The notes beneath the pieces are model-generated. The model had not been told where the DNA came from. It saw only the letters and a program-made list of their open reading frames with translations, and made no database searches. Below, one piece after another: positions 41,991-43,480 of a stretch of 64,000 bases of DNA. The position numbers and the translations under genes were made by a program. This stretch comes from Hericium rajendrae (lineage: Eukaryota > Basidiomycota > Agaricomycetes > Russulales > Hericiaceae): NCBI GenBank assembly GCA_033439255.1, contig CM065880.1:1-64000 (forward strand). Reading direction: 5' to 3'. How positions within the stretch are numbered: position 1 is the stretch's first letter; every line of letters begins with the position of its first letter.

Positions 41991-43480
41991 AGGACCCCCG
42001 AAATTACACTGACCATGCCTGAGGCCGTGAAGGACAGATATGGGCCAAATTTTGGCGGATGCATGGGTCAGAACGGACGGATTTGGGGGTCGGTGAGCAC
42101 GGACGCCAGGGTCGAAGTACGGACATCCGGGGGGGTGGTCCGGCCAGGCCTGGTCCAGGACGGACATCATACCCTGTGGGTCGCCCAAATGGGGCATGCA
42201 CCTGTCCGGATCATAGGATCTGGTGCTTTTTCTCGGCGTCCTTCCGTGGTGGCAGCGGCGGCTCGACGGTCTTCATGTTCGACTCTAGGCTCGTTCCCAG
42301 CCGGTTCCACGTGATCTCATAAATGAGGTGACACTTCTGTGGAACCGGCTGGGCCCATCCGTCGCCGTTTTGGCGGACGCGTCGTTTCCCCGCCAAATCC
42401 AAAGCTCGTCTTCGCGAAAAACGGGCCTCAACTTCATTAAAAAGGTCTCTAAAGTTAGTAAATGAAAGATGGATTTTGAAGAATTCTGAGTTGATTTGTA
42501 TATACATGTTTTTCTCGAAAAAAGTCAGATTTTGTTAACTTCGACAAGGTGCAAGATCACTGCCTCGAAGTGCTGCATGTATAGGCAGTTTCAACCACAT
42601 TGGCAGCCCACCGGTGAGATCAATTGGTGTGTCTAAATTTGATTGTCATGGGTGACATGTCTGGTGAGAATTGGGAGGCTGTTCGGGTCGTAGCTAGTCG
42701 ATCTCAATGTAATACAAGGAGGCAGAGCCGCAGTGCAGACGCGAAGTCGAAGAATTTCGATTTTCTTCGAAAAAAGATTATATATCCAAATCGACTTGGA
42801 TTGCGTCAAAACTCACTTTTCATTTACTGAGTTGAGGAACTTTTTCTCGATGTTGAACGTCGATTTCGACGAAGTCGAGCTTTGGATTTGGCGGGGAAAC
42901 GACGCGTCCGCCAAAACGGCGACGCTGTGGCCCAGTCCGCTCGTAAACTCGCGTCTCCTAAATTACCTCACATAAGCGAGTTTACGTGCTGGACTGGGTA
43001 CGAGTCTAAGCAAACCCCTGCAAACCCTAGCGCTTCCGGCCTTGAAGTTGGCGATACTTATTGACTTGAGCAAGCTTCAATTGCCGTAGCCTCCTTTCAT
43101 CCTGGCCGACATGTCACGTTCCAACCACAAACCGAGTGAGTCCTTCCGATATGTGCGCTGGGGTGGATCCGAGCGCCTGAGCATTGAGTACATAGAGCAG
43201 TGTGCGGCATTCCTCGGGCTGCTCAGAGAAGACCACGCCCGCTTCGGAGCAGCTTCATCTCACCTGCAAACATTGACAACTTGGTGCCGCTTTCTTCGGA
43301 GCTGCAATATGCTTATCGCAGAGGGAATTTTTGGAGGCCTGGTCCATATCACGGACAAGATTGGGTCTACAGCGGAGGCCTGGGTCAGAACGGACGGAGG
43401 GTTCAAAATCATGCCGGACATATCTGGGCAAAATCGGGTTTTGCGGGATCAGGCCTATATAGGCTATTTTCGGGGGTCCT
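41991..43480. mobile_element. Non-autonomous hAT-like DNA element, split by a nested insertion
   Basis: The ends are inverted repeats starting AGGACCCCCGAAA, with weaker similarity continuing for about 40 bases (GCCTGA..CCG). A perfect 8-base duplication GATGACAG flanks them (41983-41990 and 43481-43488). An 8-base target duplication is the mark of the hAT superfamily. The total span is 1490 bases, but 719 of these are the nested element at 42288-43006, so the original unit was about 770 bases. There is no transposase frame. A direct-repeat motif GGGTCAGAACGGACGG occurs in both halves (near 42064 and 43384). Confidence 0.8.
42288..43006. mobile_element. Foldback-like inverted-repeat element with hairpin termini, nested in the hAT-like element
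   Basis: Flanked by TA on both sides. Ends are G(G/A)CTCGT(T/A)CCCAG. Arms about 240 bases long are inverted copies: a 48-base block is perfect (42361-42408 against 42876-42923) and the rest is diverged. Just inside each end lies a hairpin. Left: 42296-42310 pairs with 42339-42353, 15 of 15 bases, around a 28-base loop. Right: 42931-42952 pairs with 42976-42998, about 21 base pairs with one bulge and one mismatch. Both stems begin CCCAG and close CTGGG, but the rest of the two stem sequences differs completely. The central part (about 42540-42735) has no coding frame. Superfamily not determined. Confidence 0.8.

Follow-up and report, generated by a model that had tools for sequence, protein, structure and literature searches.

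Terminal hairpins that differ between the two ends of a RecQ/DUF6589 transposon and some of its relatives in Hericium rajendrae

The window analysed here, a stretch of 64,000 nucleotides at the start of contig CM065880.1 of Hericium rajendrae, contains a short inverted-repeat element with a hairpin at each end. The two hairpins are built from different stems, and both stems are self-complementary. Why should the two ends of one element differ in sequence and still pair? The initial annotation proposed selection for structure rather than sequence. We compared the element with its copies and relatives in the same genome.

The element in the window and its parent transposon

The copies confirmed the element that had been placed at 42288..43006, and shifted each of its boundaries by two bases. 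Its parts are as follows.

42286..43008, no strand assigned: whole non-autonomous element, 723 bp, TAG...CTA; boundaries common to the copies on contigs C12, C8, C11, C10, C1 and C2
42286..42295, plus strand: left terminal motif TAGGCTCGTT, 10 bases, with the tetranucleotide GGCT at 42288-42291
42296..42310, plus strand: outer arm of the left hairpin, with the foot AGCC at 42299-42302, complementary to the terminal GGCT
42311..42338, plus strand: loop of the left hairpin, identical in five family A copies
42339..42353, plus strand: inner arm of the left hairpin, with GGCT again at 42347-42350
42360..42408, plus strand: left subterminal inverted-repeat block, 49 bp, perfect
42876..42924, minus strand: right subterminal inverted-repeat block, 49 bp, perfect
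42931..42952, minus strand: inner arm of the right hairpin, with minus-strand GACT at 42934-42937
42953..42975, minus strand: loop of the right hairpin
42976..42998, minus strand: outer arm of the right hairpin, with the minus-strand foot AGTC at 42992-42995
42999..43008, minus strand: right terminal motif TAGACTCGTA (minus strand), 10 bases, with the tetranucleotide GACT at 43003-43006

From the outside to the inside, each end consists of the 10-base motif, the hairpin, a short spacer and the perfect block, which is one base longer than the 48 first reported. The self-complementarity of the stems was borne out: the left stem (42296-42310/42339-42353) pairs at 15 of 15 positions and the right stem (42931-42952/42976-42998) forms 21 pairs with one mismatch and one bulge. 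The two stems had been called unrelated; they are indeed different, but CCCAGNCC and its complement are common to both, and only beyond it do they diverge. Folding of the ends as single-stranded DNA, a check proposed with the annotation, gave -21.8 kcal/mol on the left and -22.2 kcal/mol on the right (z -6.6 and -7.6), and 0 of 200 shuffles folded as well as either end. When the stems were anchored behind the end motif, with arm lengths as observed, 0 of 1000 shuffles reached them on each side.

Searching the genome (46.8 Mb, 19 contigs) with the element returned 35 matching stretches, including cross-matches of the inverted arms. The copies, here called family A, measure 715 bp on C12, 1409 bp on C8 (where a different insertion abuts the right loop), 7670 bp on C11 and 23,624 bp on C10, and two miniature copies measure 96 bp on C1 and 74 bp on C2. 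All six have the same termini and exact 9-bp target duplications; no target-site duplication was found at 42286/43008 in the window copy. A direct repeat, TGGGTCAGAACGGACGGA, flanks the window element at 42064-42081 and 43381-43398, and recombination there might be related to the missing duplication.

The 7.67-kb copy on C11 encodes, in two frames, a RecQ-family helicase (Helicase_C 2.2e-11, DEAD 4.9e-09), whose best solved relatives are WRN and then RecQ, and also a DUF6589 protein (3e-105). The window element is an internally deleted, non-autonomous copy of this transposon; it is ordinary in origin, but its end architecture is unusual and testable. The C10 copy (C10:1777035-1800658, 9-bp duplication) is a relative whose DUF6589 gene is split by a retrotransposon encoding reverse transcriptase, integrase and a chromodomain (L025-L027). 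In the C8 copy (C8:1445093-1446501, L010), the insertion of about 680 bp is lodged in the right hairpin, where inner arm and loop meet, and carries TGGGACACG at its ends in inverted orientation.

The genome holds at least 34 DUF6589 loci and at least 34 RecQ loci (matches grouped within 3 kb). At 24 of the 34 DUF6589 loci a RecQ relative lies within 6 kb, a distance that covers about 1% of the genome; thus, the two genes recur together as a unit. RecQ relatives of the transposon helicase with no DUF6589 in their vicinity were also seen 25-58 kb from contig ends (C1:5260574, C11:57873 and C2:24818), a position reminiscent of telomere-linked helicases, and a further one lies inside C1 (642183). 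Six near-identical left-half copies (L004-L008 and L016; two each on C19 and C11, one each on C9 and C10) are situated about 14-78 kb from a contig end, and their common flanking context identifies them as a subtelomeric duplicated segment.

Stems and terminal tetranucleotides in five families

The ends of five related families (A-E) were located in this genome. Family B was bounded by comparison of copies, with no hairpin required. Its left ends on C16 (L029/L030) and C14 (L042/L043) end at TAGGCTCGGACCT, followed by a stem of CCTAACCGGTAAT or CCTAGCCGGTAAT with ATTACCGGCTGGG; its right end is a composite of two loci, with the terminus TAGCCTCGAACCCAGGCC taken from C14:785554 and a long, imperfect hairpin from C16, since no single intact copy has the two together. 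Family C, a 210-bp element with a 10-bp target duplication, was found by a terminal-motif pattern in which some foot bases were fixed (31 matches versus 4 for the reversed pattern), and its stems are CCAAGACCC/GGGTCTTGG on the left and CCAAACCGCTC/GAGCGGTTTGG on the right. Families D (C8:743104-749706) and E (C11:591846-597511) emerged from a scan requiring a stem behind TAG or TAC upstream of DUF6589, and were confirmed by a matching end and a 9-bp duplication on the far side.

Ends were located for about 10 of the 34 DUF6589 loci, by searches that, in requiring stems (D, E) or fixing the foot (C), would miss ends without hairpins. For the remaining loci, only B, D and E emerged from the 1.5-kb flanks (30 loci, L028-L057) and from L065-L068. 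Judged by script or, for some copies, by eye, exact target duplications were present in 11 of 18 two-ended copies (A 6/7, B dimer 0/1, C 3/4, D 1/5, E 1/1); they measure 9 bp in A, D and E and 10 bp in C, and no other length occurred among these 18. Two further candidates, C9:923328 and C7:1078053, look by eye like chance matches of the end pattern. A lone family C right end at C8:2770338 (L074) is flanked by a 9-base repeat, GAACCGCTC, which resembles its own missing arm, and it is perhaps a one-ended insertion.

The stems differ between the two ends in families A, B and C, so that chance divergence of one copy is ruled out. The long left and right ends of D and E are nearly identical (7 differences in 157 bases and 10 in 212, respectively), and therefore carry the same stem twice. 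Identical stems at both ends of other copies would, by the initial annotation, have refuted its reading; they were found only in these related families and not in family A. In other words, an ordinary element with identical ends is ruled out for A-C and is true for D and E.

It is evident that the stems change between ends and families with their pairing kept. We compared eight representative ends: A-left, A-right, B-left (C14), B-right (two loci), C-left, C-right, D and E. Their first eight stem positions give 64 pairs, of which 61 are Watson-Crick in an alignment that sets D and E one base off, T and A replacing the first C. Only 2 of 40,320 permutations of the inner arms equal this value, namely the true arrangement and the one in which two identical arms trade places, though related ends are not independent and all come from one genome. 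Stem position 6 alone is filled by C-G, T-A, G-C and A-T, plus one non-pair in D. At the six ends of families A, B and C, tested with arm lengths taken from the stems themselves, the observed stem was reached by 0/1000, 0/1000, 0/1000, 0/300, 1/1000 and 2/1000 shuffled interiors, and the best pairing partner of each outer arm was its own interior. Folding energies were good in family C (z -4.0 and -3.9) and in family E (z -4.7), where the best fold is the terminal palindrome AGACTGG/CCAGTCT and not the full hairpin. The left ends of family B (C14 z -1.3, C16 z +0.8) and the ends of family D (z -0.9) folded no better than shuffles.

A second regularity links the stems to the termini. Every end studied has a terminal TAGNYT motif and a hairpin starting 10-11 bases in. 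Terminal bases 3-6 (GNYT) are complementary, in fixed register, to bases 14-17 at the hairpin foot in seven of the eight representative ends (D fails by one base), and the same GNYT recurs near the end of the inner arm in all eight. N is G in A-left, B-left and C-right, A in A-right and E, C in B-right, and T in C-left and D; Y is also changed in C-right. Among the 40,320 permutations, 24 were as good for terminus and foot, 8 for terminus and inner arm, and 24 for foot and inner arm; with both B ends left out, 8 of 720 (terminus-foot) and 4 of 720 (terminus-inner arm) were as good. Because the rule was noticed before these counts were made, they do not amount to a test planned in advance, and here too related ends are not independent. 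When the left and right ends of an element are compared, the changes at the rule positions prove compensated: one in A, one in B and two in C. A single mismatch interrupts the terminus-foot pairing in family D, in the two left ends of B on C16 and in the right end of the C5 miniature copy.

A scan for the rule plus a stem recovered, among copies with both arms, 11/11 A-left, 4/4 A-right, 2/4 B-left, 3/3 C and 2/2 E ends and 0/4 of D; neither the interrupted C8 right end of family A nor the decayed D relatives (L080, L081) were picked up. Among the scanned loci it returned element ends only, and it gave no hits when these loci were reversed (582 kb with both strands included). Covariation between ends and families thus involves three places, the terminal GNYT, the foot of the hairpin and its inner arm, and the new finding here is that the terminal GNYT pairs with the foot and recurs in the inner arm.

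Within one family, it is the sequence of an end that is fixed. Five family A copies (window, C12, C8, C11 and C10) agree at 68 of 68 positions from the left terminus through both arms and the loop, whereas the next ~172 bp are 63-87% identical; the one subtelomeric fragment of six that we compared matches at 64 of 68. At the right end, four copies agree at 74-76 of 79-80 positions versus 76-77% beyond, and the close pair of window and C12 agree at 78/78 versus 160/162. Gene conversion could contribute to this fixity. Covariation between copies, which the initial annotation had expected, does not hold within family A, where changes in the stem are one-sided: the subtelomeric left-end fragments, which are without right ends, show three uncompensated changes that break pairs, the C11 and C10 copies have a common new mismatch in the right stem, and the mismatch of the window copy is absent from C10. 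Selection for structure rather than sequence is therefore partly supported: it would fit the comparison between ends and families, but not the left hairpin of family A, which is conserved as sequence throughout.

How the ends may be recognised

The reading we favour, at a probability of roughly 55%, is a cut-and-paste RecQ/DUF6589 transposon, most likely AcademH, whose opened ends fold and are recognised partly through base complementarity. The DUF6589 protein would be the putative transposase. An end would be opened, probably by the RecQ helicase, and then fold; during assembly of the transposition complex, either its terminal tetranucleotide would pair with the hairpin foot, or the foot would pair with the inner arm. 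Protein contacts would then not suffice for recognition, which would also require complementary bases at these sites. An end, once set, would be held constant within its family, but left and right ends of an element may diverge, since each must fit only itself. Against pairing stand the terminus-foot pairings interrupted by a mismatch, the D and B-left ends, whose folding is no better than that of shuffles, the uncompensated changes of family A, and the miniature copies of 57-96 bp, which have target duplications and no inner arms; if these moved in their present state, the inner arm is not needed. A stronger form, in which end recognition in a eukaryotic cut-and-paste transposon is achieved by DNA-DNA pairing, the foot serving as a guide that reads the terminal tetranucleotide, with the inner arm competing and a changeable code at each end, is speculative and we consider it doubtful.

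The arms and the terminal motif could instead be ordinary transposase-binding sites in alternating orientation (roughly GNYT, then G or T and GG), with the hairpin as a by-product. The three motif copies per end in direct-inverted-direct order, the strict conservation within family A, and family E, which repeats an 8-base motif and folds best as a terminal palindrome, are all consistent with such sites. In families A, B and C, however, a single protein must bind two ends that differ in N, and at each end the motif copies still change along with N; a base that is not read should not covary. A base that differs between the ends and still agrees in three places at each of them is not easily explained by a protein binding both, and the family A stems pair well beyond the motif; binding sites alone are thus an unlikely explanation.

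Mechanical renewal of the stems is another reading: when a nascent or broken strand folds back, one arm would be copied onto the other, and the complementarity would be an unselected by-product of repair. Such events may have occurred at these hairpins. On C16, a 15.3-kb inverted dimer (C16:254462-269719; L058, C16:260500-263500) joins two family B elements head to head, with left ends at 254462 and 269719 and one common right hairpin with interior sequence on both sides. Its outer flanks differ, which makes an assembly fold less likely, and it has no target duplication; we infer that a strand folded at the right hairpin and was then copied back. At the left end of the miniature copies of A, B, C and D, the outer arm survives with some or all of the loop, whereas the inner arm is gone (to within one ambiguous base); left breakpoints within the loop or at its edge are explicable by interrupted repair at the hairpin. 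As the source of the stems themselves, foldback copying is improbable, since it should carry longer tracts than GNYT, to which the match of terminus and inner arm is limited, with differences on both sides in seven of the eight representative ends; moreover, five copies of family A have one and the same stem and loop. A role of the hairpins at the RNA level, such as termination or the silencing of read-through transcripts, is very improbable. Stable stems do lie outside genes at both ends of family A, but in the ends studied 10-11 bases separate the hairpin from the cleavage point, the rule of pairing extends to the terminal bases, and copies without genes keep their hairpins.

Should base pairing be the means by which the ends are read, the two ends of a eukaryotic transposon could diverge without loss of activity, a four-base code could match non-autonomous copies to their donor, and the job of the helicase would be the opening and refolding of the ends. 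Moreover, the uncharacterised DUF6589 is now tied to a transposon with defined ends and target duplications, and its function becomes testable.

Relation to known transposons

AcademH is said, after Kojima in 2020, to comprise Academ DNA transposons with a helicase. The initial annotation knew of no described fungal family with such ends, a claim that cannot be upheld: the helicase and the 9-10 bp duplications make AcademH the most likely assignment, as far as the available text of the sources goes. AcademH target duplications are given there as 9 or 10 bp (PMC10045372), fungal DEAD/Helicase_C domains are assigned to AcademH, KolobokH or Helitrons, and AcademH is described as low-copy in fungi (PMC10799480); the present transposon likewise has 9-10 bp duplications and a DEAD/Helicase_C helicase. 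DUF6589 paralogues, compared among themselves, have conserved D, H, D and GDxGR columns and no assigned DDE triad. Searches for DUF6589 found no solved relatives at E up to 5, no sequence relatives in phages, viral contigs or prokaryote genomes, and, in the literature available, no paper naming it. In the accessible parts of the literature, a search for terminal hairpins with Academ, compensatory stems, and guide sequences with RecQ found nothing on point.

Kolobok elements duplicate TTAA, 4 bp, while the present transposon duplicates 9-10 bp without a TTAA motif. It shares with KolobokH, a fungal Kolobok with a RecQ helicase in the available part of its description, the presence of such a helicase in a fungal DNA transposon (PMC9587614). 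The helicase and a hairpin near an end are also reminiscent of Helitrons. Helitrons, however, have only one hairpin, no target duplication and no inverted repeats, whereas the present element has target duplications, inverted repeats and a hairpin at each end.

The closest parallel in working, not in kinship, is IS608. IS200/IS605 elements use an HUH (Y1) transposase and make no target duplication; no Pfam match to an HUH (Y1) transposase was found in the seven scanned frames of the C11 element. According to the accessible text on IS608, each end carries a subterminal hairpin, the cleavage and guide tetranucleotides differ between left and right, and the end tetranucleotide is recognised via pairing with a guide tetranucleotide at the hairpin base (PMC5934647). 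At seven of our eight representative ends, the terminal tetranucleotide pairs analogously with the hairpin foot. IS608 differs in its single-strand HUH transposase and fixed target tetranucleotide, as against RecQ, DUF6589 and a 9-10 bp duplication here, and the present tetranucleotide lies inside the element. If the stronger pairing reading is true, these transposons would be a eukaryotic parallel to the guide pairing of IS608 in an unrelated RecQ/DUF6589 system.
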